Shown: positions 33,289 to 46,559 of the stretch, piece by piece
Layout of the letters: every line of letters begins with the position of its first letter
Numbering within the stretch: position 1 is the first letter of the stretch
DNA from: Acidovorax sp. HDW3
GTDB lineage: Bacteria > Pseudomonadota > Gammaproteobacteria > Burkholderiales > Burkholderiaceae_C
Direction: 5' to 3'
Assembly: GCF_011303755.1 (NCBI RefSeq)
Contig: NZ_CP049885.1
Coordinates: 3,088,247 to 3,152,246 of the forward strand
DNA: 64,000 bases
Translations under genes and position numbers: made by a program
The notes under the pieces: model-generated
The model's database searches: none
The model's input: only the letters and a program-made list of their open reading frames with translations
Told to the model about the DNA's origin: nothing

Positions 33289-34020
33289 ATGCCGCGTTTT
33301 TACTGCCCCCTGCCGCTGGCCAGCGGCGCTGAACTGGAGCTGCCCGAGGGCGCCGCGCGCCACGTGCAGGTGCTGCGCCTGCAACCGGGCGCGGCCATCA
33401 CCTTGTTTGACGGCCAGGGCGACGAATGGCCGGCCCAGGTGCTGCACATGGGCCGCAGCAGCGTGCGCGTGCAGCTCGGCGCGCCCGAGCGCGTGGCGCG
33501 CGAGGCGGCGCGCCCCATTCACCTGCTCGCCGGCATTACGGCGGGCGAGCGCATGGAGTGGCTGATCGAAAAAGCCACCGAGCTGGGCGCCGCCAGCCTC
33601 ACCCCCATCGCCGCCGAGCGCAGCGTGCTCAAGCTCAAGGGCGAGCGTGCCGACAAAAAACAGGCCCACTGGCAGGCCATCGCCATTGCCGCCTGCGAGC
33701 AATGCGGGCGCAACCGCGTGCCCACCATCCACCCCGCCGCCACGCTGGCCCAGGCCCTGGCGGCGCTGCCTGCGGTTGAGCCGGCGCAGCCGGGCCAGCG
33801 CCTGCTGCTGTCGCTGCAGGCCGATAGCAAGCCGCTGCGCCAGGCGGCGGCGCCGGGCAGCGGCGCGCTGTGGTTCCTCTCCGGCCCCGAAGGCGGCCTG
33901 GCGCCGGCCGAAGAAGCCCAGGCCCTGGCCGCTGGCTTTGCCGCCGTCACCCTGGGCCCGCGCGTGTTGCGCGCAGAAACCGCGCCGCTGGCGGCGCTGG
34001 CGGGCTTGTTGCTCGACTGA
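33289..34020 (+). CDS. rsmE: 16S rRNA m3U1498 methyltransferase RsmE
   Basis: A 243-residue SPOUT-class methyltransferase. The N-terminal PUA-like part has AARHVQVLRLQPG and ITLFDGQGDEW. The SPOUT domain has GERMEWLIEKATELGAASLTPIAAERSV, IAACEQCGRNRVP, and the knot SGPEGGLAPAEEAQA followed by LGPRVLRAETAPLAAL. It uses SAM to methylate the 30S subunit. A copy of the repeat ends one base before the ATG, so any promoter or ribosome site lies within the repeat, which is worth noting. It converges on the YkgJ gene. Confidence 0.95.
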   Translation: MPRFYCPLPLASGAELELPEGAARHVQVLRLQPGAAITLFDGQGDEWPAQVLHMGRSSVRVQLGAPERVAREAARPIHLLAGITAGERMEWLIEKATELGAASLTPIAAERSVLKLKGERADKKQAHWQAIAIAACEQCGRNRVPTIHPAATLAQALAALPAVEPAQPGQRLLLSLQADSKPLRQAAAPGSGALWFLSGPEGGLAPAEEAQALAAGFAAVTLGPRVLRAETAPLAALAGLLLD

Positions 34021-34043: not shown

Positions 34044-34454
34044 TCAGCGCTTGGCCAGCGCCTGCGGTCCGTAGGCGCACCAGCCCGGGCGCGGGCTCTT
34101 GGTTTGCGGGTGCAGGCGGCAGGTGTCGGGGCGCTGCGCGTACACGGTGCAGCGGCGCGTGGCGGCGTCGAGCAGCTGGCAGTCGCCGCTGGCGCGCCGC
34201 GCCAGGGTGAAGAGGGCGTGCTTGTGGCTGAAGTGCGCGATCAGCCGCGCTTTTTCCAGCCGCTTGGCAATGCGGCGGATGTCCTCGTGCTCGGCCTCGA
34301 AGGCATCGACCCAGCCCAGGCGCACCAGGTCGGGCAGCCGCACCTCCAGCGGCATGGTGCAACAGTTGGCCGCGCAACTGTCGCACAGCCCGGCGCGGTA
34401 GCGCGTCCAGGTGTCGGGGCGGTCAACGTCAACGATGGCGATGTGGGTGCGCAT
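34044..34454 (-). CDS. YkgJ family cysteine-cluster protein
   Basis: A 136-residue protein of the YkgJ/CxxCxxxCC family, predicted to bind zinc or an Fe-S cluster. The cysteines are CDSCAANCC, CQLL, CTVY, CRLH and WCAYG. Function unknown. It lies 61 bases downstream of jetD on the same strand and converges with rsmE. The ATG at 34454 (MRTHIAIVD) is chosen because the upstream in-frame extension is GC-rich and low complexity. Confidence 0.85.
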   Translation of the reverse strand: MRTHIAIVDVDRPDTWTRYRAGLCDSCAANCCTMPLEVRLPDLVRLGWVDAFEAEHEDIRRIAKRLEKARLIAHFSHKHALFTLARRASGDCQLLDAATRRCTVYAQRPDTCRLHPQTKSPRPGWCAYGPQALAKR

Positions 34455-34515
34455 GGGGTGGGCGGCGGTGGGCGGGCGCGCATTGTGCCCCGGGGGCAAA
34501 AACCAGATGGGCCGC

Positions 34516-35694
34516 TCAGCTGCCGCCGTGCCAACCGTGCAGTGCCCGCGCCACGGCAGCGGGGGCGATGAATTCCTGCTCCAACCGGCCCGCCGCCAGG
34601 CTGCGCAGGTGGGCATCGAGCGCCATCTCTTGCGCCTGCAGCCCCAGGGCAGGATGGGCGCGCACCGGCTCGGCCACGGCCTGGCCCTGGTGGGCGTCGA
34701 AGGTGGCCCTGTCCATCAACAGGGCCGTGAGCTGCGGCAGGTGCTGGCGTGCCTGGGCCAGCATCTGCAGGCCCCAGGTGTCGATGTCGCCCCAGTAGGC
34801 CACGCGGCGCTCTTGCAGCCAGGGCGCGGCCAGCCAGCCCAGGTTCAGCCCCGCGCCCAGGATGGCGATGCTGCCCGCCAACGGCTGGGGCAGCAGGTGC
34901 AGGCAGCGTTCGTTTTCCAGCAGCAGGAGGTGGCTGGCGGGCAGGGGCGTGGCCATCAACTCGCTCGCTGGCACGCGCTGGCGCGCAAAGGGCAGCAGGC
35001 CGGGCGCCAGCGGGGCGACGAGCAGCCAGTGCTCGCCCTCGGGCTGCGCGGCCAAAAAAGCGGTCAGCCCCTGGCGACTGGCTTCGCCCTCAAAACGCTC
35101 GTCCAGCAGCGCGGTGAGCAGGGCGGCGTGGCGCTCGAAGAATTTGCTGTCGTTGCCCGCCATGGGCAATGCGCGCAGTGGCCGGCCCTGGGCGCAGCCG
35201 GGCGTGAGCTGCAGGGCGATGCGGGCGGCGCTGGCGACCTGGCCCAGCGGCGTGCCCTGCCATAGCGCCAGGCGGCGCAACAGCAGGCGGTGAAAGCCCG
35301 CATCCACCTGCGCCAGCAGTTCGGCCAGCGCCTGCTGGCTGGCGGCAGCCTGCGCGCCCACGCTGCCGCCGTGCCGGGCCATGGCCGCCGCGCAGTCCGA
35401 GGGGCGCGCGAGCAGCCAGTGCGTAGGCACGGCCAGGGGCGTGCTGGCGCTGCGGTAGCGGCGCTCGCTGTAGAGCACGCTGCCGGGGTCTTGTTCGGCC
35501 ACGGTGCGCCACTGCTGCAAATGCTGGCGCAGCGCGGCGCTGTCGTCATTGAACTGGCCCGCGTCCGGCGTGCCGATGGCCAGGCGCAGCGGCCAGGCAG
35601 CGCCATCGCGGGCGTTGAGCAAATACCGCTCGCGCCAGTCGGCCCGCTGCCATTGGCGCGCGAGCTGCTGTGCGAGGTGGGCGGGGGATTTCAT
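34516..35694 (-). CDS. jetD: Wadjet anti-plasmid system subunit JetD (nuclease)
   Basis: A 392-residue JetD. The N-terminal half fits DUF3322 (PAHLAQQLARQWQR, WPLRLAIG). The C-terminal half is DUF2220, a TOPRIM-like domain related to topoisomerase VI: LLLLENERCLHLLP and VAYWGDIDTWGLQMLAQAR contain the acidic metal-binding residues. In Wadjet, JetD cleaves small circular DNA after JetABC extrudes it. The gene follows jetC on the same strand but 340 bases away, across a palindrome cluster, so it may have its own promoter or read-through. Confidence 0.93.
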   Translation of the reverse strand: MKSPAHLAQQLARQWQRADWRERYLLNARDGAAWPLRLAIGTPDAGQFNDDSAALRQHLQQWRTVAEQDPGSVLYSERRYRSASTPLAVPTHWLLARPSDCAAAMARHGGSVGAQAAASQQALAELLAQVDAGFHRLLLRRLALWQGTPLGQVASAARIALQLTPGCAQGRPLRALPMAGNDSKFFERHAALLTALLDERFEGEASRQGLTAFLAAQPEGEHWLLVAPLAPGLLPFARQRVPASELMATPLPASHLLLLENERCLHLLPQPLAGSIAILGAGLNLGWLAAPWLQERRVAYWGDIDTWGLQMLAQARQHLPQLTALLMDRATFDAHQGQAVAEPVRAHPALGLQAQEMALDAHLRSLAAGRLEQEFIAPAAVARALHGWHGGS

Positions 35695-35750
35695 GGGGTT
35701 TCAAAAAGGGGGATTGTCGGCGCTTGTCTTGCTCCCCCGGCGGTCTCACT

Positions 35751-35962
35751 CCCTCTCCCCTTGCGGGAGAGGGCTGGGGAGAGGGGGGTGAACAGGCATG
35801 GTGCGTCAAGCCAGCATCCCCCTCTCCCCCCACCCCTCCCCCGCGAGGGGGGAGGGGAGTTACAGCTGGCACGCTGATTGGGGGCCAGCGGCGTCGGTGC
35901 ACATCAAGCGCCAATCATGTGCCAGCCGGCCCCCATCCCGGCCTTCCCCCAGCGGGGGAAGG
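35751..35962. repeat. REP-like palindrome cluster between jetC and jetD
   Basis: Three purine/pyrimidine palindromes occur: CCCTCTCCC/GGGAGAGGG (35751-35773), CCCCTCCCCC/GGGGGGAGGGG (35833-35857) and CCTTCCCCC/GGGGGAAGG (35942-35962). Between the last two, GCTGGCAC-gct-GATTGG (35865-35881) pairs with CCAATC-at-GTGCCAGC (35911-35926). No gene is seen in the 340-base gap 35695-36034. Confidence 0.75.
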
Positions 35963-35997
35963 AGAAAATCCACCCCTTGATGTAGGGTTGGGAATAA

Positions 35998-36034
35998 TCA
36001 AAATTGATAGCTACTCGCGCTTGCTGTATCAGCG
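35998..36034. repeat. Dispersed palindromic repeat, copy 10
   Basis: ATCAAAATTGATAGCTACTC and GCGCTTGCTGTATCAGCG form a partial, short-form copy directly downstream of jetC. Confidence 0.65.
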
Positions 36035-39000
36035 TTAAGGCAGAATTTTATTGCCATCTTGCAGCGCCTGCGCCTGCTGCGCCAACTCCTCCCACGTCAG
36101 CGACGCCAGCACCGCCTGCCGCCCGCGCCGGTGCACCAGCACGGCGCTGCGGGTGTGTTGGCGCAAGAGCCGCATTTCCTTGTTGGGCGTGACGAACAGT
36201 GCGTGCAGGCTGAATTCGCGCAGCGCCTGGATGATGCGCGCGGCCACGGCCTGGGAGCTTTTGGAGAAGGCCTCGTCGAGCACGATGGTGGCAAACAGCG
36301 GCTGGCTGCGCCCCTGCGGGCACAGCGCGTAGCTGAGCGACGCAGTCAGCACGTAGCTGGCGATGATTTCCTTCTCGCCGCCGCTGCCGCCTTGCGAGCC
36401 GGTGCGCCGCTCCAGCACGGCGCCGCTGTCGCGGTCGAGCACGTGCACGGCGAACTGCAGGCGGTAGCGCGCGTCCAGCAGCGCCTGCGCGGCCTTGGTG
36501 CGGCGGTTGCTGGCGTGCTCGCGCAGCAGCTCCACCATGGCCTGCAGCGCCTGGTAATGCGACTGGCCGCCGTCGCCCTGCAGGCGCTCGCTGCGCAGGT
36601 GCGCCATGGCCTTGTGCAGGGCCTGCAGGCTGGGGTGGATGACGGGCTGCGGCGCCAGTTGCAGGTAGCGCCCGCTTTGAAAGTCCACACGCGCCAGGGT
36701 TTCGTTCAGATCGGCAATGCGCTCGGTGATCTCGGTCACCTGCGCCTCGATGCCCGAGAGCAGCGTGCTCACGCCCTGGTCGGAGGCGCTGTTGAGGTAG
36801 TCCTGAAAGCGCTGGCGCTTTTCCGGCAGGGCTTCCTCCTCCAGCACGCGCAGGCGCTCCAGGTAGGGGGCGAGGGCCTCCACCTCCTGCGGCTGGTCGG
36901 CCAGCGCGCCCCGGTCTTCCTTGTGTGCGCGGCCCATCTGGCGGATCAGCTCCTGGCGCAGGGTGTTGAGCTGGGCGGCTTGCTTGTCCACCTGCGCGCT
37001 GGCCTGGGCCTGGGCCTGGCGCTCCTGGGCGTCCAGGCGCTCGCAGCTGGGCGGCTCGGCCAGCAGGGCGGCGATGGCGGCGTGGTGCGCGCTGGCGTCA
37101 GTGCCGCCCGCCGACAGGCGCTGGGCGTATTCGGCCTGGCGTGCCTGGGCGTTGTCGCGCCGGGTTTGCGTGGCGGCCTGTGCGGTTTGGTGCTGCAAGA
37201 GGGCCGCAGCGGCCGCCTGGGCCTGGGCGTGGGCGGCCTCCCAGCGGGCCTTGGCCTGGGCGGCGTCGGATTGCGGGTTGAGCAAATCGGCCAGCCGCTG
37301 CTGCAACTGCTGCAGTTGCGTGTGGACGCTGGCGCTGTCGATGGCGTCCCAGTGCAGCGCCTGCAGTTGCTGCCAGATTTGCTGCTTTTGTGCCGCCAGC
37401 GCTTGTGCAGACTGCGCGAGCAGCTTCTGTTTTTGTAGCGCATTCCACTGCTGCTCGGCAGCCGTGAGCTGCTGCGCCAGGTGCGCCAGGCGGTCGCGGT
37501 TGTCAAAGCCGGTCATCCAGTCCTGGTCGATGCGGCGCTGGTCCTGCTTGTCGAAATGCTGGGCGCGGCCAGACATCAGCCCCTCGCGCGTCATGGCGTG
37601 GGCGGTGGCGCGCAGGGCCTCGGGGCTGTCCACGCAGTGGCGGTCTTGCTCGGCGAGCAATTGGCGCAGCGTGGCCTCGTAAGCGTGGGGCTTGAGGTTG
37701 AGCTTGCGCGCGAAACCGTCTTCCATGAAACGAGCGGACGCAGCCTGCGCGCCCACCTCCAGCAGCCGCACATGCAGGCGGTTGTGCCGCTGGTTGACCC
37801 AGGCGAGTGCCGCGTCCATGGCCGCCTGCGGCACGAGGATGCGCAGGCGCTGGCTGCCCAAGGCGCGCTCGATGGCGCCGCGCCAGGCTTGCTGGTTTTT
37901 TTGCACCTCGACCAGCTCGGCGACAAAAGGCAGGTCGGGCGCATCGAGCTGCAGCTGCGCGGCCAGGTCGGCGCGGAACTGGGTGAAGTCGGGCGGCAGG
38001 TTGGAGCCAGGGCGCTGGCGCACGGCCTGCTGCTCCTGGTTCAAGGCTTGCAGTTCGGCGTGGGCGTTGCGCTCGGCGGCCACGGCCTGCTCGGCGGCGG
38101 CTTGCAGGTCGCGCTGTTCGCCTTCCAGCGCCTGCAGCGCCGGGGCGGCCTGCTGCTGGTGCGTGGCCAGGGTGTCGGCGCTCAGGGTTTCGGGGCAGGC
38201 CAGGCCCAGTTGCTGCGCCAGGCGGCGGTACTGGGCGCTGCTCTGCTGGCGCTGGGCCAGCGTGGCCTGGTGGGTGCGGATGCTGTCTTCAAGCAGCTTT
38301 ACGTCGCCCCCGCCGCAGCGCAGATAGGTCTCCAGCAGGGTTTGCGCGGCCTGGTCTGCCGTGTGCTGCGCGCTGCGGGCGCTGTCGATCTGGCGCTGGC
38401 CGGCTTGCAATGCGGCGTCCAGCTCCGCCAGGCGCTCGGCCCACAGGCGCTGGCCTTGGGCGGCAAACCACTGCGGCAGCGCGGCGTGCAGCCCGCGCAA
38501 CTCCTGCAGGCGCTGGTGCGCGGCCTCTTCCTGCGCGGCCAGTTCGCGCAGCGGCAGCAGGGCCAGGTACTGGCGGTTGGCCAGCTCCAGCTCGGCGTGG
38601 ATGGCGGCGAGTTCGTCGAAGCTGGTCGCCACCTGCAGCGCGTCGTCAAACGCGCTGTGGTCGTCGAGCACCAGCTCGCGGAAGATGTCGTCGATGCTGT
38701 TGAGCTGTTTCAAGCCCGCCGCGCGGTTGAGCAGGGTGAAGGCGTTGGGGCCGACTTCAAAAAAGCGCTGCACGCGCGCCAGGTAGGCCGATTTGCTGGT
38801 GAAAAACTGCAGGCCGTCGCTGGCCAACTTTCCCAGGGCGCGCGCGCCGCCGGCGTGGTGTTCTTCGAGCCACAGATCCAGCCCATGGCCGGGGCCGCGC
38901 GCAAAGCACCAGCGCCGGCCCAGGTCGGCCACGCTGGAGCTGCTGCCGTCCAACCACAGGATGGCGCCCAGCCAGACTTCGTCCGCCGCTGCCGCCGCCG

Positions 39001-39340
39001 CCGATTCACCATCGCGCACCAGCCGTGCGGCAATGCCCGTCACGCAGCGGCCCGTGCGCGCCAGGTGCTCGCCGCTGTCGCTGCCCGGGCCCGCGCCGGG
39101 GCCGGTGGCGCCGCGCACGTAGGACACCAGATCGCGGTCGCTCTCGTGCCCGCCGGTCGATGCCAGGTTGTAGCGCGGGTTGGCGCACAGCAGCGTCATC
39201 AGCGCATCGACCAGCGTGGTCTTGCCGCTGCCCGTGGGGCCGATGATGGCGGTGTTGGCCGCGTCCACGCTGGCCTGGTGGCGGCCCGCGAACGCGCCCC
39301 AGTTGTACAGGTGCAGCTCGTGCAGGCGGTAGCCGCTCAT
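36035..39340 (-). CDS. jetC: Wadjet SMC-like ATPase JetC
   Basis: A 1101-residue SMC/MukB-like ATPase. Walker A is GPTGSGKTT at residues 34-42. Two long coiled-coil arms flank a hinge near 480-560. The ABC signature GGSGGEKEIIASY is near residue 984 and Walker B TIVLDEAF near 1018, giving the half-head split typical of SMC proteins. It pairs with the JetA kleisin and JetB KITE subunits and extrudes DNA loops. Its ATG overlaps the jetB stop by 4 bases. Ala/Gln-rich arms are in keeping with the host's composition, so this is not an obviously recent import. Confidence 0.95.
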   Translation of the reverse strand: MSGYRLHELHLYNWGAFAGRHQASVDAANTAIIGPTGSGKTTLVDALMTLLCANPRYNLASTGGHESDRDLVSYVRGATGPGAGPGSDSGEHLARTGRCVTGIAARLVRDGESAAAAAADEVWLGAILWLDGSSSSVADLGRRWCFARGPGHGLDLWLEEHHAGGARALGKLASDGLQFFTSKSAYLARVQRFFEVGPNAFTLLNRAAGLKQLNSIDDIFRELVLDDHSAFDDALQVATSFDELAAIHAELELANRQYLALLPLRELAAQEEAAHQRLQELRGLHAALPQWFAAQGQRLWAERLAELDAALQAGQRQIDSARSAQHTADQAAQTLLETYLRCGGGDVKLLEDSIRTHQATLAQRQQSSAQYRRLAQQLGLACPETLSADTLATHQQQAAPALQALEGEQRDLQAAAEQAVAAERNAHAELQALNQEQQAVRQRPGSNLPPDFTQFRADLAAQLQLDAPDLPFVAELVEVQKNQQAWRGAIERALGSQRLRILVPQAAMDAALAWVNQRHNRLHVRLLEVGAQAASARFMEDGFARKLNLKPHAYEATLRQLLAEQDRHCVDSPEALRATAHAMTREGLMSGRAQHFDKQDQRRIDQDWMTGFDNRDRLAHLAQQLTAAEQQWNALQKQKLLAQSAQALAAQKQQIWQQLQALHWDAIDSASVHTQLQQLQQRLADLLNPQSDAAQAKARWEAAHAQAQAAAAALLQHQTAQAATQTRRDNAQARQAEYAQRLSAGGTDASAHHAAIAALLAEPPSCERLDAQERQAQAQASAQVDKQAAQLNTLRQELIRQMGRAHKEDRGALADQPQEVEALAPYLERLRVLEEEALPEKRQRFQDYLNSASDQGVSTLLSGIEAQVTEITERIADLNETLARVDFQSGRYLQLAPQPVIHPSLQALHKAMAHLRSERLQGDGGQSHYQALQAMVELLREHASNRRTKAAQALLDARYRLQFAVHVLDRDSGAVLERRTGSQGGSGGEKEIIASYVLTASLSYALCPQGRSQPLFATIVLDEAFSKSSQAVAARIIQALREFSLHALFVTPNKEMRLLRQHTRSAVLVHRRGRQAVLASLTWEELAQQAQALQDGNKILP

Positions 39341-40110
39341 GCGCCGCCCTCGGGGTTGCTGGCGAGTTCGCGCAGGCGCTGCAGCAGCGCCTGCAGGTTC
39401 TCGGGGTTGGCCAGGTGCACGATCATGGGGCGGATGGTGATGCGCTCTTGCGCGTCCACGTCCGACACCACGCCGTGCCCGCGCAGGTGCTCCAGCAGGG
39501 TCAAAAGGCGCTTGCGCTCCTGCATGTCGCTGCCGGTGTGGCCCAGGTAGATGCCCAGCTGCGGCAGCAGGCTGTCGATGGCCAGTTGCACCGGCACGCC
39601 CAGGCCGCCTTCTTGCTCGCGCTGCAAAAACTCGCGCCGCAAAATCGCCAGCAGCAGCGACTGCTCCAGCGTCAGCCGCTGGCGGCGCACCAGCGGGTGC
39701 GTCCAGTCGTCCTCGTCCTCGCCGGTGTTCTCGCTCTGGTAGCTGGCGGCCACGGCCACATAGGCCAGGCCCCGGTGGTCGTCCACCAACACCCGCAAAT
39801 CCAGCGGCTCCAGCAGCGCATTGGCGCGTGCGGTGTCGGTGGCAATCTGGCGGAACAGGTGGGGCTTGGCAGACAGCTCCAGCAGGCCGTTTTTCAGCAG
39901 CTCCTGCAGGGCGCGGCGCACGATGGCGGGGGTGGCGGGGCCGTGTTCTGGCGCGGGGCTGGCGGCGGGGGCCTCTTCGCCCGTGGGGCCATCAGGGGCC
40001 GTCACTGGGGCCGTGGCGGGGGCGGCGCTGGCCCATTGGTCGAAGAGGTTGGGGGGCATGGTGTTGGGTGTGTTTTTGGATGTTTTTGGCTGCTGGCCCT
40101 TACTGGTCAA
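39337..40110 (-). CDS. jetB: Wadjet KITE subunit JetB (DUF4194)
   Basis: A 257-residue DUF4194 protein. After a Pro/Ala-rich N-terminus (to ~60) come winged-helix segments: IVRRALQELLKNGLLELSAKPHLFRQ, ILRREFLQREQEGGLGVPVQLAIDSLLPQLGIYLG and LLTLEHLRGHGVVSDVDAQERITIRPMIVHL. It is the MukE/KITE-like partner in the JetABC complex. Its stop overlaps the jetC start. A dispersed repeat separates it from jetA. Confidence 0.92.
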   Translation of the reverse strand: MTSKGQQPKTSKNTPNTMPPNLFDQWASAAPATAPVTAPDGPTGEEAPAASPAPEHGPATPAIVRRALQELLKNGLLELSAKPHLFRQIATDTARANALLEPLDLRVLVDDHRGLAYVAVAASYQSENTGEDEDDWTHPLVRRQRLTLEQSLLLAILRREFLQREQEGGLGVPVQLAIDSLLPQLGIYLGHTGSDMQERKRLLTLLEHLRGHGVVSDVDAQERITIRPMIVHLANPENLQALLQRLRELASNPEGGA

Positions 40111-40135
40111 GCGCGAGCAGCTATGGTTTTTGTAG
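40083..40135. repeat. Dispersed palindromic repeat, copy 11
   Basis: TTTTTGGCTGCTGGCCCTTA faces CTGGTCAAGCGCGAGCAGCT and ATGGTTTTTGTAG. It spans the start of jetB in the short gap between jetA and jetB, inside the Wadjet operon. Confidence 0.7.
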
Positions 40136-40155
40136 TTTGAAATGGCGGTTGCATG

Positions 40156-41655
40156 TCACCAATCCGCATCGACCGCCCCCACCGCCTGCGCCGACAGCAG
40201 CACACGCGGCACCGTAAAGCGCCAATCCTGGCCCTGAAAGCGGGTGGTGATCTGCTCCGTCGCCCCGGCCTCGAAGGTGGCGCCGCTTTCCTGCGCCAGC
40301 GCCAGCCACAGGGCCAGGGTTTCCAGGTCGTGTTCGCCGGGCGGCAGCACTTCAGCCAGCGCGGCCAGGGTCAGGGGCTGGTCGCTGTGCTGTAGCGCCT
40401 GCAGGGTCTGGCGCAGCAGGGCTTCGCGGTCCAGGCCCTCGAAGGCTTGCCAGAACTCGGCGTCCATCTGCGCCAGGTCGGCGTATTGCGTGGCCAGCAG
40501 TAATTCGGATTCACCGCCGCCGCCTTGCGACTTGGTGCGCAGGCGCTCGATCAGCGGCAGGTTGGCCAGCGCCACGCCCAGGGGCGGCAGCGGCGCGGCC
40601 TGGCGGCGCACGGCCTGGCGCTGCCAATCGACTTCCAGCGCCTGCTGCAGGATGTCGCCCAGCAGCTGGCCGACGCGCTGGTTTTCCACCGCCTGGCCGG
40701 TTTTCATGAACTGGCTGACTTCGCGCTCGCTGCGTGCGCGCACGGCCTGCACCACCTTGGCCTCGGCAATGAGCTGCTGCACCAGCAGGCGCAGTTCGCT
40801 GCGCTGCAGGTCGTCGAGCGCCTGGCCGCTGGCCGGGTGCGCGACGATGGCGCGGATGCGCACGCGCATCTCGGCCAGCTCGCCCTGGTGGTCGAGCTGC
40901 TGCTGAAAGCTCTCGAACACGCGGCCTTCCTGGGTATTGAGCAGCGCGGCGTGGCCGCCCAGGAGCCGCTCCATGACCGCGCCCCGGTGGTGCTGGGCGC
41001 TCAAAATCGCCTGGCGCAGCGCGCGGTCGGCCTCGCGCCACGAATCCTCCACGCGGCGAAAGTCGGCGCGCAGGCTGGTGGCCAGGGCATAGACCTCGCG
41101 GATGCCCTCCACCGCCTGCGCCTCGGTGAGCAGCGGCAGGCGCCCGGCCTGCACGTCTTCGAGCTGCTGCTGCAGGTCCTTGATGCGCCGCTGCAGGTGC
41201 TCGGCGCGGCTGTGCGGGTTGGGGTCGAGCGCGGCGGCCAGGTTGTCGATCTCGCGCTGCACCACCGCCAGACGCGAGGCGGTGGAGGTCATCATGCGCT
41301 GGTCGAGCTGCGCCACGAAGCGCATCGCGGTCTTGAGCGCATCCGTCTCGTGCACGCGGCCCTCGCGCTCGGTGACCAGGCCGCGCCTGATCCACTCGCG
41401 CAGCTCGCGCCGCGCCTGGGCCAGCAGGTCGGCGGGCTCGATCTCGTACTCGGGCTGGTTGGCGTGCGCGCCCAGCAGATCGGCCAGCGCCTGCACGGCG
41501 GTATCAAAGGCCACGCCGCCGGGCTGGTGCTCAAACAGGGCTTCGAGCCCGCTCAACATCAGCGGTGCCCGGCGCGAGGCCAACAGCAGCCAGGCCGGGT
41601 GCTGCTGGCGCGCGGCGATGTATTTTTGCGTGCGCTGCTGGGGGAGGGTGGGCAT
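40156..41655 (-). CDS. jetA: Wadjet kleisin-like subunit JetA (DUF3375)
   Basis: A 499-residue DUF3375 protein. The N-terminus KYIAARQQHPAWLLLASRRAPLMLSGLEALFE begins a winged-helix region with REWIRRGLVTEREGRVHETDALKTAMRFV, then coiled coil (to ~330) and a C-terminal part (KSQGGGGESELLLATQYADLAQMDAEFW). JetA is the MukF-like kleisin that closes the JetC ring. It is the first of the four jet genes. The start at 41655 (MPTLPQQRTQKYI) is chosen over an ATG at 41682. The RhuM gene ends 36 bases upstream. Confidence 0.93.
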   Translation of the reverse strand: MPTLPQQRTQKYIAARQQHPAWLLLASRRAPLMLSGLEALFEHQPGGVAFDTAVQALADLLGAHANQPEYEIEPADLLAQARRELREWIRRGLVTEREGRVHETDALKTAMRFVAQLDQRMMTSTASRLAVVQREIDNLAAALDPNPHSRAEHLQRRIKDLQQQLEDVQAGRLPLLTEAQAVEGIREVYALATSLRADFRRVEDSWREADRALRQAILSAQHHRGAVMERLLGGHAALLNTQEGRVFESFQQQLDHQGELAEMRVRIRAIVAHPASGQALDDLQRSELRLLVQQLIAEAKVVQAVRARSEREVSQFMKTGQAVENQRVGQLLGDILQQALEVDWQRQAVRRQAAPLPPLGVALANLPLIERLRTKSQGGGGESELLLATQYADLAQMDAEFWQAFEGLDREALLRQTLQALQHSDQPLTLAALAEVLPPGEHDLETLALWLALAQESGATFEAGATEQITTRFQGQDWRFTVPRVLLSAQAVGAVDADW

Positions 41656-41691
41656 GGGCGGGGAGACCAACCGAGGGGGCAAAAAGTGGCG

Positions 41692-42708
41692 TCAGGTTTT
41701 TTTCTTGCTGCTGATTTTCTTTTGTGCTGTTTTGATGGTCTCTAGATAAACCGTTTCTACCTCAGAGGGTTGGTCGGCCAGCCGGGCACGAAACTTGTCG
41801 TATTCGGTTTCTGCGTGCGCCACCGCTTGCTGGTGGCCCACCGTGCCAGCACCTTGCAAGGATTTGCCTCCCATGGCGGCGATCATTTGTTCCAGGTGTG
41901 CGAGCCAATCCTTCATGCAGGTGGGTTCGTGGTTCATGGCACGGAATTCGGCAGCGTCGAAATAGGCCGAGACCAGCGTATTCAGGCGCTTGAGTTCATT
42001 GGCATCCAGGTAATTTTTGGCGTTGCTCACCTCGGCTTTGGTGGGCTGTGGCCCGCTGAATGAGAGCAGGCCCATGAAGGGTTTCCCGGCATCGGCACGC
42101 TGTCTAATGACTTCTGCCGCCGTTTGGCCGTGGGCGGCATAGTGCAATTTGTTCTGCACAGTTTTGAAGAACACGATGCTGGCTTGCGCTTTCGGGTCGT
42201 AATCGATGCTGGTCGCGTAGAGGTCAAGAACCTGGCGGTAGAGCACCTTTTCGCTGGAACGAATGTCGCGGATGCGATCGAGCAGCTCTTTCCAGTAGCT
42301 GCCTGCGCCCAGGTTTTTCAGGCGGGCATCGTCCATGGTGAAGCCCTTGACCAGGTATTCACGTAGGCGTTCGGTGGCCCAGATGCGAAAGCGGGTAGCG
42401 ATTTGCGAGCGAACCCGATAACCCAGCGAAATGATCAGATCCAGGTTGTAAAAGGGCAGCGTGCGGCTGACTTGGCGACTGCCCTCGGTGCGAACCTGTC
42501 GGAATTCCCGACAGGTTGCCTCCGGGCTTAATTCGGCTTCGGCGTAGATGTTGGCAATGTGTTCTACAACATTCGTACGCGATGTTTGAAACAGATCGGC
42601 CAGTTGTTGTTGACTTAGCCAAACGGTGTCGCCATCGAGGCGCACGTCGATAGCGGGAGCATCACCCCGTAGGTACAGGACGATTTCGCCGTCAGGCTGT
42701 TCGCTCAT
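41692..42708 (-). CDS. RhuM family protein
   Basis: A 338-residue protein of the virulence RhuM family: LYLRGDAPAIDVRLDGDTVWLSQQQLADLFQTSRTNVVEHI at the N-terminus (helix-turn-helix-like), LPFYNLDLIISLGYRVRSQIATRFRIWATERLREYLVKGFTMDDARL, then a fic-like helical region and a Lys-rich tail. RhuM genes are widespread, often in defence and restriction islands; molecular function is unproven, with DNA binding plausible. Its lower GC than surrounding genes suggests transfer. It lies between gyrB and jetA, same strand, 36 bases upstream of jetA. Confidence 0.85.
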   Translation of the reverse strand: MSEQPDGEIVLYLRGDAPAIDVRLDGDTVWLSQQQLADLFQTSRTNVVEHIANIYAEAELSPEATCREFRQVRTEGSRQVSRTLPFYNLDLIISLGYRVRSQIATRFRIWATERLREYLVKGFTMDDARLKNLGAGSYWKELLDRIRDIRSSEKVLYRQVLDLYATSIDYDPKAQASIVFFKTVQNKLHYAAHGQTAAEVIRQRADAGKPFMGLLSFSGPQPTKAEVSNAKNYLDANELKRLNTLVSAYFDAAEFRAMNHEPTCMKDWLAHLEQMIAAMGGKSLQGAGTVGHQQAVAHAETEYDKFRARLADQPSEVETVYLETIKTAQKKISSKKKT

Positions 42709-42762
42709 GTTGATTGCCTTTCCATCAGAGATGGGCCAACACGTTCAGGTGACAAAGCCAAT

Positions 42763-45390
<2,628 letters not shown>

Positions 45391-45452: not shown

Positions 45453-46559
45453 TCAGATCCGCATGGGCATGACGACGTACTTGAAGCTCTGCTGCTCGGG
45501 GATGGTGAAGAGCACCGAGCTGTTGCCGTCCTGCAGCGCCAGCTGCACCATGTCCTGGCCCATGTTGGCCAGCACGTCGATGAGGTAGGTGACGTTGAAG
45601 CCAATCTCTATGCTCTCGCCGCCGTAGTCGATGTCGAGTTCGTCCTGCGCCTCTTCCTGCTCGGCGTTGGTGCTGGCCACGCGCAGGCTGCCCGGTTCGA
45701 TGTTCAGGCGCACGCCCTTGAACTTGTCGCTGGTCATGATGGCCGTGCGCTGCAGGCAGGCCAGCAGCGGCGCGCGCCCGAGGGTGATGGTGTTGTGGTG
45801 GTTGCGCGGGATGACGCGGTTGTAGTCGGGGAATTTGCCCTCGACCAATTTGGTCACGAACTCCATGCCGCCAAAGCTGAACTTGGCCTGGTTGTTGGCA
45901 AACTGCATTTCGATCGCGCCGTCGGCGTCGGAGAGCAGGCGCTGCAGCTCCAGCACCGTCTTGCGCGGCAGGATGACCTCTTGCTTGGGCACTTCGGCAT
46001 CGAGCTCGGCGCTGGCAAAGGCCAGGCGGTGGCCATCGGTGGCGACCAGGGACAGGGTTTTGCCCTCGGCGACGAACAAAATGCCGTTGAGGTAAAAGCG
46101 GATGTCCTGGATCGCCATGGCGAACGAGACTTGGCCCAGCAAGCGCTTGAGCGTCTTTTGCGGCACGCTGAACGCGGGGCCAAAGGCGGGCGACTCTTGC
46201 ACCAGCGGAAAGTCCTCGGCCGCCAGGGTTTGCAGCGTGAAGCGGCTTTTCCCGCCCTTCAAGATCAGCTTGGACTGGCTGCTCTCCAGGCTCACCGTCT
46301 GGTCGCTGGGCATGGTTTTCAGAATGTCGATCAGCTTGCGCGCGCCGACGGTGGTGCTGAAGTCGCCCACATCGCCGCCGAGCTCGGCCGTGGTGCGAAT
46401 CTGGATCTCCAGGTCGCTGGTGGTGAGCTGCAGCGCGTTGCCGGTCTTCTTGATCAGCACGTTGGCCAGGATCGGCATGGTGTGGCGGCGCTCGACGATG
46501 CCGCAGACGGCTTGCAGTACGGCAAGCACCTTGTCTTGGGTGGCCTTCAGGACAATCAT
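45453..46559 (-). CDS. dnaN: DNA polymerase III beta (sliding clamp)
   Basis: A 368-residue sliding clamp that encircles DNA and tethers polymerase III. All three clamp domains are present: MIVLKATQDKVLAVLQAVCGIVERRHTMPILANVL at the start, ILKGGKSRFTLQTLAAEDFP in domain I/II, and the C-terminus YVVMPMRI, whose MPMRI ending supports client-peptide binding. The position between dnaA and gyrB is the classic order. Confidence 0.98.
   Translation of the reverse strand: MIVLKATQDKVLAVLQAVCGIVERRHTMPILANVLIKKTGNALQLTTSDLEIQIRTTAELGGDVGDFSTTVGARKLIDILKTMPSDQTVSLESSQSKLILKGGKSRFTLQTLAAEDFPLVQESPAFGPAFSVPQKTLKRLLGQVSFAMAIQDIRFYLNGILFVAEGKTLSLVATDGHRLAFASAELDAEVPKQEVILPRKTVLELQRLLSDADGAIEMQFANNQAKFSFGGMEFVTKLVEGKFPDYNRVIPRNHHNTITLGRAPLLACLQRTAIMTSDKFKGVRLNIEPGSLRVASTNAEQEEAQDELDIDYGGESIEIGFNVTYLIDVLANMGQDMVQLALQDGNSSVLFTIPEQQSFKYVVMPMRI

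Follow-up and report, generated by a model that had tools for sequence, protein, structure and literature searches.

Type I Wadjet is a defense system built around JetABC, a structural maintenance of chromosomes (SMC) motor; JetABC extrudes loops of DNA and presents a small circle, once fully reeled in, to JetD, which cuts it. Its solved structures (PDB 8dk1-8dk3, 7til, 8as8, 8bfn, and 8q72) are taken here to be those of the type I systems of Pseudomonas aeruginosa PA14 and Escherichia coli GF4-3. The present analysis concerns a Wadjet operon at positions 34516-41655 of a 64-kb stretch of DNA from Acidovorax sp. HDW3 (hereafter, the window), along with the chromosomal site downstream of gyrB in which the operon lies. 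The window forms the final 64 kb of a genome assembled as one contig of 3,152,246 bases and labelled G000; other G and L numbers denote the genomes and loci compared with it.

Defense genes near the start of a bacterial genome or next to gyrB have been described before. The genome of Cupriavidus necator H16 presumably begins at dnaA-dnaN-gyrB. According to the accessible part of a report on that strain, type I R (RS00030) and type IV (RS00040/45) genes and a Wadjet (RS00090-00105) are among its first locus tags (PMC12645576). In Helicobacter, the PabI restriction-modification (R-M) pair lies downstream of gyrB and is kept there across species, as stated in the portion of the source that was available (PMC4615327). 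No account of a Wadjet beside gyrB, or of the gyrB 3' flank as a hotspot in the order, was found in the literature searched, parts of which were available in excerpt and which left subscription journals mostly outside.

The Wadjet operon and its site

The reading favored here, with a probability of roughly 0.8, is that a complete type I Wadjet occupies the gap between gyrB and a YkgJ-like gene, a gap that in relatives is empty or holds other predicted defense genes or scars of Wadjet. The gene set, its motifs, and the states of presence or absence in relatives were all computed. An earlier note on this DNA, made from the letters alone, had read four adjacent same-strand genes as jetA, jetB, jetC, and jetD in that order and had proposed profile searches with the four Jet families; when these were run, all four genes matched in Pfam, among the PADLOC type I models, and among solved Wadjet chains. 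In Pfam, DUF3375 was found in JetA (PF11855, E = 1.8e-98, 330.9 bits versus a cut-off of 28.6), DUF4194 in JetB (PF13835, E = 1.6e-25), AAA_29 and SbcC_Walker_B in JetC (E = 9.6e-19 and 8.2e-18), and JetD_C and DUF3322 in JetD (E = 2.1e-39 and 3.1e-33), all above cut-off. The PADLOC type I models returned E values of 1.1e-207 for JetA (PDLC00452), 1.4e-85 for JetB (PDLC00480), 0 for JetC (PDLC00511, 1369 bits), and 3.3e-143 for JetD, and the PDB sequences returned 3.6e-159, 1.6e-61, 0, and 3e-99, respectively. The genes are adjacent on the minus strand with a 340-bp spacer preceding jetD, all four reading frames are intact, and a search of the own genome found a single DUF3375 gene. JetC carries, as the earlier note had stated, intact Walker A (GPTGSGKTT, from residue 34), signature (GGSGGEKE, from 984), and Walker B (IVLDEAF, from 1019) motifs. 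The acidic TOPRIM-like residues that it had seen in JetD were likewise located (E260, D303, and D305, aligned to 7til and 8q72), and E260 aligns with the residue altered in the JetD(E248A) chain of 8q72. Ratios of nonsynonymous to synonymous divergence (dN/dS) against six loci were 0.15-0.58 for jet genes or their scars and 0.19-0.24 for gyrB. Judged by its sequence, the operon is a complete type I Wadjet and an ordinary member of a known family, and its complete set, order, motifs, and dN/dS are compatible with the type I mechanism. DNA cutting is predicted for it from solved and tested relatives: JetABC would reel in small circular DNA by loop extrusion, and JetD would cut it.

The site itself is in four different states in the four genomes (G000-G003) that are all of those marked own or same genus among 149 relatives. 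Following gyrB, there is a RhuM-family gene and Wadjet in G000, SspBCD-like genes and scars in G001, LeoABC-like genes in G002, and an empty site in G003. In the last of these, window positions 43066-42756 (the gyrB end) and 34458-26001 align to one contig (92.9%); the intervening block (Table 1) is missing, 129 bp stand there instead, and gyrB is followed by the CxxCxxCC (YkgJ-like) gene. The right-hand alignment extends from 4 bp before the YkgJ-like ATG, across rsmE, to a ksgA-like gene, with genes putatively named lptD and surA in between. The YkgJ-like gene also comes directly after gyrB in G006, which belongs to another genus and is assembled as one contig. Behind gyrB in G001 (L106:8216-17378) are a 110-bp scar of the jetA 5' end, matches to SspB, SspC, and SspD, and jetD scars, and in G002 there are matches to LeoA and LeoBC; in both genomes the genes further right differ from the right flank of the window. 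The arrangement in G001 looks as if one defense system (Ssp) had replaced another (Wadjet). Comparing gyrB-rsmE neighborhoods, which the earlier note had suggested, shows an insertion that varies among lineages. Loss is the simpler reading of the gap in G003, because synonymous divergence (dS) between the window and G001 is the same for the jet genes (0.34-0.45 across jetA-D) as for gyrB (0.35), and of the two genomes G003 is the closer to the window; a late gain in the window lineage would be a less simple alternative.

Table 1. Features of the window on the gyrB side, in window coordinates
Feature	Position	Strand	Remark and evidence
dnaA	46673-48106	-	conserved upstream flank; Pfam Bac_DnaA
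dnaN	45453-46559	-	conserved upstream flank; Pfam DNA_pol3_beta domains
gyrB	42763..45339	-	left anchor of variable site; Pfam DNA_gyraseB, Toprim, GyrB_insert
RhuM-family gene, 338 aa, PADLOC candidate family PDC-S05	41692..42708	-	PF13310, PDC-S05
jetA (DUF3375)	40156..41655	-	Pfam, PADLOC, PDB sequences
jetB (DUF4194)	39337..40059	-	Pfam, PADLOC, PDB sequences; TTG at 40110 a possible alternative start
jetC, MukB-like SMC ATPase	36035..39340	-	Pfam, PADLOC, PDB sequences, motifs
jetC-jetD spacer, 340 bp, dispersed repeat	35695..36034	-	own-genome matches
jetD, nuclease subunit	34516..35694	-	Pfam, PADLOC, PDB sequences, residues
CxxCxxCC (YkgJ-like) gene	34044..34454	-	right anchor of variable site; PF03692, E = 2.4e-13
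rsmE (16S rRNA methyltransferase family)	33289..34020	+	conserved right flank; PF04452
Whole RhuM-jetABCD block, missing from G003	34459..42755	-	alignment to G003

The earlier note had placed the operon beside gyrB, dnaN, and dnaA. The shared gene block stands, but gyrB is not the direct neighbor of jetA because a full-length RhuM-family gene sits between them; this gene and the dispersed repeat at the jetC-jetD joint had both been overlooked. GC content is 70-73% in jetA-D, 65% in gyrB, and 55.8% in the RhuM-family gene. A mobile element was considered as carrier of the block and rejected, with no tRNA within the 64-kb window and no integrase among the neighboring genes scanned, a scan that was not extended more widely. 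Plasmid origin was rejected as well: JetC relatives occur in 14 plasmid records, the best at 51.5% identity and one of the 14 with at least 80% coverage, and the plasmid collection searched held no close donor.

Defense cargo downstream of gyrB

Other predicted defense genes recur at this flank. HsdM_N was matched in 95 of the 149 relatives, and at least 12 of the 182 matches in all lie within 10 kb downstream of gyrB on either strand, where about 0.5 would be expected (at least 12 genomes: G016, G033, G036, G052, G056, G063, G076, G078, G079, G080, G113, and G121). By eye, none among the matches listed falls on the opposite side of gyrB at a distance of 10 kb or less. A close JetA was found in 14 of 399 family genomes; in six of these (G000, G179, G203, G271, G286, and G353) it is within 10 kb of gyrB, versus about 0.035 expected at random positions. 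Counting G401, in which gyrB is split over two contigs and its end shares a contig with jetA, 9.6 kb before that gene, would make seven of 14; close JetA and gyrB are on separate contigs in G249, G401, and G412. gyrB or its end was present in the fetched flank of 12 of 76 JetA loci (L020-L024, L027-L030, L032, L033, and L036), not counting a partial 52% match at the edge of L047. All 12 belong to the 23 loci with JetA identity of at least 59% (L020-L040, L076, and L092), three of which (L031, L035, and L037) have a short upstream flank. Order-wide, the DUF3375 cut-off was passed in 51 of 399 genomes; 49 were taken to the gyrB search, leaving out G000 as well as G639, whose match is a fragment at the cut-off, and gyrB was found in 46. 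Here, jetA is downstream of gyrB by 144 bp in G144, 11.5 kb in G704, and 18.9 kb in G475; it is 45 kb upstream in G124 and at least 200 kb away in G118, G545, G612, and G641. G144 and G704 belong to other families, and JetA, JetC, and JetD of the former and JetA of the latter match the type I models as divergent members. A type I R-M system stands between gyrB and jetA in G704; in the same interval of G475 no defense gene was recognized by reading the sequence only, with no profile scan.

The cargo differs from locus to locus. The gyrB-jetA interval holds a type I methyltransferase and restriction endonuclease in L022, PtuA in L029, an AbiEii-like gene in L103 (G353), PDC-S01 in L028 and L032, and DUF3800 in L027. 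Directly before the AbiEii-like gene, L103:7162-8184 encodes a 340-aa protein of no PADLOC family, possibly a partner. By eye, about 70 bp before jetA in L023 resemble the hsdR end of L022, which suggests that a type I R-M system was lost in the L023 lineage. Genes are also found inside the operon: between jetA and jetB there is a HEC-01A/HEC-01B candidate defense pair in L020 (L020:11595-13483) and, in L036 and L100, an NYN gene accompanied by small genes that read as putative toxin-antitoxin-like. In G286 (L100:1-2740 and L202:3320-16289), the Wadjet on the gyrB side has a type I-C CRISPR-Cas locus nested between its jetC and jetD; jetC is followed by a CRISPR array with a 37-nt repeat, matches to Cas3c, Cas8c, Cas7c, Cas1c, and Cas2c, and then an intact jetD, after which come GNAT-like and YkgJ-like genes, both named from reading the sequence. 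G203 has kept jetA, lost jetB and jetC, and retained the end of jetD. Its orphan jetA (L021:10001-11731 / L104) has an open frame and 94% DNA identity to that of the window.

Thus, the same flanks enclose differing defense cargo, scars, or nothing in relatives, a pattern expected of a hotspot, and the gyrB-YkgJ gap is likely a defense hotspot and a turnover site for several defense systems. gyrB and the downstream housekeeping genes would be the conserved anchors of the site, between which defense cassettes may be gained, lost, and swapped, probably by recombination through the anchors. The suggestion that the location matters therefore holds for a likely defense hotspot, while a functional tie to gyrase, topology genes, or replication is unsupported. 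A functional reason for a topology sensor in a topology block is likewise unsupported, given that the same place is occupied by restriction genes, Ssp-, Leo-, and Septu-like genes, and CRISPR-Cas.

Counterevidence and alternative explanations

A number of observations weigh against a complete and working Wadjet at a defense hotspot. The genome with the empty site, G003, is a draft (87% complete, 570 contigs), and in G001 about 215 kb separate the intact Wadjet from gyrB. The expectations for JetA and HsdM_N assume uniform placement and not matched control loci, and the six gyrB-adjacent JetA cases come from four genera; the genomes, being related, do not count as independent, and the Poisson figures exaggerate significance as a result. 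JetA lies about 156 kb from gyrB in G437, 16 kb away and opposed in G359, and far away in G018 and G358, and eight of the 23 closest JetA loci (L025, L026, L034, L038-L040, L076, and L092) have 10 kb of upstream sequence without gyrB. Across the order, JetA is within 20 kb downstream of gyrB in only 3 of 46 genomes; 8 have both on one contig and 38 have them on different contigs. Agreement between Jet and gyrB distances is only partial, with r = 0.69 (P = 0.0018) and 63 of 126 quartets in agreement for nine chosen loci, and r = 0.64 (P = 0.0009) and 201 of 495 quartets, near the one third expected by chance, for the 12 loci having both alignments (the nine plus G437, G412, and G359). Finally, the repeat between jetC and jetD might uncouple jetD from the operon, and deletion of the type III Wadjet of C. 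necator H16 left transformation and plasmid stability unchanged under the tested conditions, going by the available part of that report (PMC12645576), so a gene set alone does not prove activity.

Plain inheritance would account for the gyrB adjacency by one ancestral insertion passed on vertically at a site that is not special. We regard this as unlikely, although several points speak for it: the equal dS of jet genes and gyrB between the window and G001, the correlated distances, and jetD or its scar followed by the YkgJ-like gene in several lineages. Unrelated cargo at the same flank (type I R-M, Ssp, Leo, CRISPR, and Septu) argues against it, as do the divergent type I JetA proteins of two other families (G144 and G704) found there. 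Exchange also argues against it. The gyrB of L020 is 0.06 from those of L033 and G353 and its Wadjet 0.33-0.34 from theirs, and jetA of G203 shares 93.8% DNA identity with the window (dS 0.125), compared with 81.6% for the dnaA-gyrB stretch (gyrB dS 0.407). Strictly vertical inheritance was rejected on the basis of L020 and of the quartet disagreement in both locus sets. A strong mismatch was also seen in G412, whose gyrB is close to that of G001 and whose Jet sequences are close to those of L029; this assembly may be mixed. Since part of the divergence matches gyrB and part (L020 and G203) does not, the gyrB-side site shows both long residence and in-place replacement, and Wadjet is likely a long-term resident of it in the family. 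The earlier proposal that the operon may be old here fits the dS shared with gyrB against G001 and fails where jetA of G203 and the Wadjet of L020 were swapped.

It is improbable that the operon is decaying or silent, with jetD cut off by the repeat. The 340-bp spacer has 117 matches in its own genome, counting the query's own place and falling mostly in the second half of the spacer, and therefore carries a dispersed repeat; jetC and jetD directly adjoin each other, or are no more than about 50 bp apart, in many relatives. In addition, for jetB-D the dN/dS (0.20-0.58) mostly exceeds the gyrB ratios. However, the four frames are intact, every jet comparison made gave a dN/dS below 0.6, and jetD of G286 stays intact despite the CRISPR-Cas locus before it. 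The repeat of the window and the CRISPR-Cas locus of G286 occupy the same jetC-jetD joint.

A broader model would make the gyrB 3' flank an origin-side defense dock of Burkholderiales, with Wadjet as the frame that other systems enter (type I-C CRISPR-Cas, HEC-01, toxin-antitoxin) or supplant (Ssp). The cassette would begin with the start codon and lack a conserved promoter, its expression would depend on read-through from gyrB and rise upon DNA relaxation, and anti-plasmid defense would be tied to gyrase homeostasis. Taken whole, this model is improbable. A conserved promoter before jetA was rejected: the upstream 70 bp differ in nearly every locus and, compared by eye in 19 sequences, have nothing in common except in pairs whose upstream cargo is the same (L022/L023, L028/L033, L032/L035, and partly L021/L030). 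A sigma-70 scan of the region gave one site, on the other strand and no more than in shuffles, and none on the jet strand. The gyrB-jetA interval of the window yielded no terminator-like site on the minus strand, which is that of gyrB. As neither a gyrB-strand terminator nor a promoter-like site on the jet strand was found, read-through from gyrB into Wadjet is possible in the window. A strong terminator-like hairpin between dnaN and gyrB (window 45431-45399) suggests that gyrB may be transcribed apart from dnaA-dnaN. General read-through is unlikely because clear terminators follow gyrB in several relatives (L022, L023, L103, L190, and L120), and confidence in a coupling of Wadjet expression to gyrB read-through is low.

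The RhuM-family gene has a full-length domain (PF13310, E = 7.8e-103, residues 64-309) and matches PDC-S05 (E = 2.2e-138, residues 5-334). That it is a fifth working part of Wadjet, as a regulator or helper, is very hard to credit and was rejected: it lies on the same strand, 54 bp after gyrB and 36 bp ahead of the jetA ATG, but RhuM occurs in only 2 of 76 JetA loci (tblastn, E 1e-8; one on the opposite strand, one a partial match), adjoins an HsdM-like gene in G036, and here has a GC content 15 points below that of jetA. Given its GC content of 56% and its inconstant association with Wadjet, the gene probably entered the gyrB-jetA interval later.

Significance and relation to known systems

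The operon itself is one more Wadjet, and the useful part is the site. The site provides a fixed address next to dnaA-dnaN-gyrB at which defense systems can be compared, its empty-site pair makes gain and loss measurable, and it offers cases of one system inside another or exchanged for it. If the site proves to be a general origin-side hotspot, surveys could read it directly for unknown defense genes, with its uncharacterized cargo as a good candidate list, and why core genes on the origin side tolerate such turnover would become testable. The positional intuition of the earlier note was worth following, and it leads to a turnover site for several defense systems and not to a link between Wadjet and topology.

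Compared with the solved type I systems, the window has the same four genes, with near full-length matches except at the JetB N-terminus, and the predicted catalytic glutamate of its JetD is aligned to the residue mutated in 8q72. It has diverged from the type I Wadjet in Pseudomonas loci (JetA 54-57% and JetC about 50% identity), and, unlike the PA14 and GF4-3 systems, it is beside gyrB, has a repeat between jetC and jetD, and has RhuM in front. With MksBEFG the likeness is slight: JetD matches MksG (PDB 8b7f) weakly (E = 2.5e-9), whereas for JetA-C the matching models and chains are those of type I Wadjet, with no Mks chain listed. The Wadjet of C. necator H16 is of type III and lies further from the genome start than does that of the window, and its position is not discussed in the available part of the report (PMC12645576). 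The PabI pair of Helicobacter is similar in that defense genes directly follow gyrB; it differs in belonging to another phylum, in being an R-M pair and no Wadjet, and in that its site is not treated as a general hotspot in the accessible portion of the source (PMC4615327).

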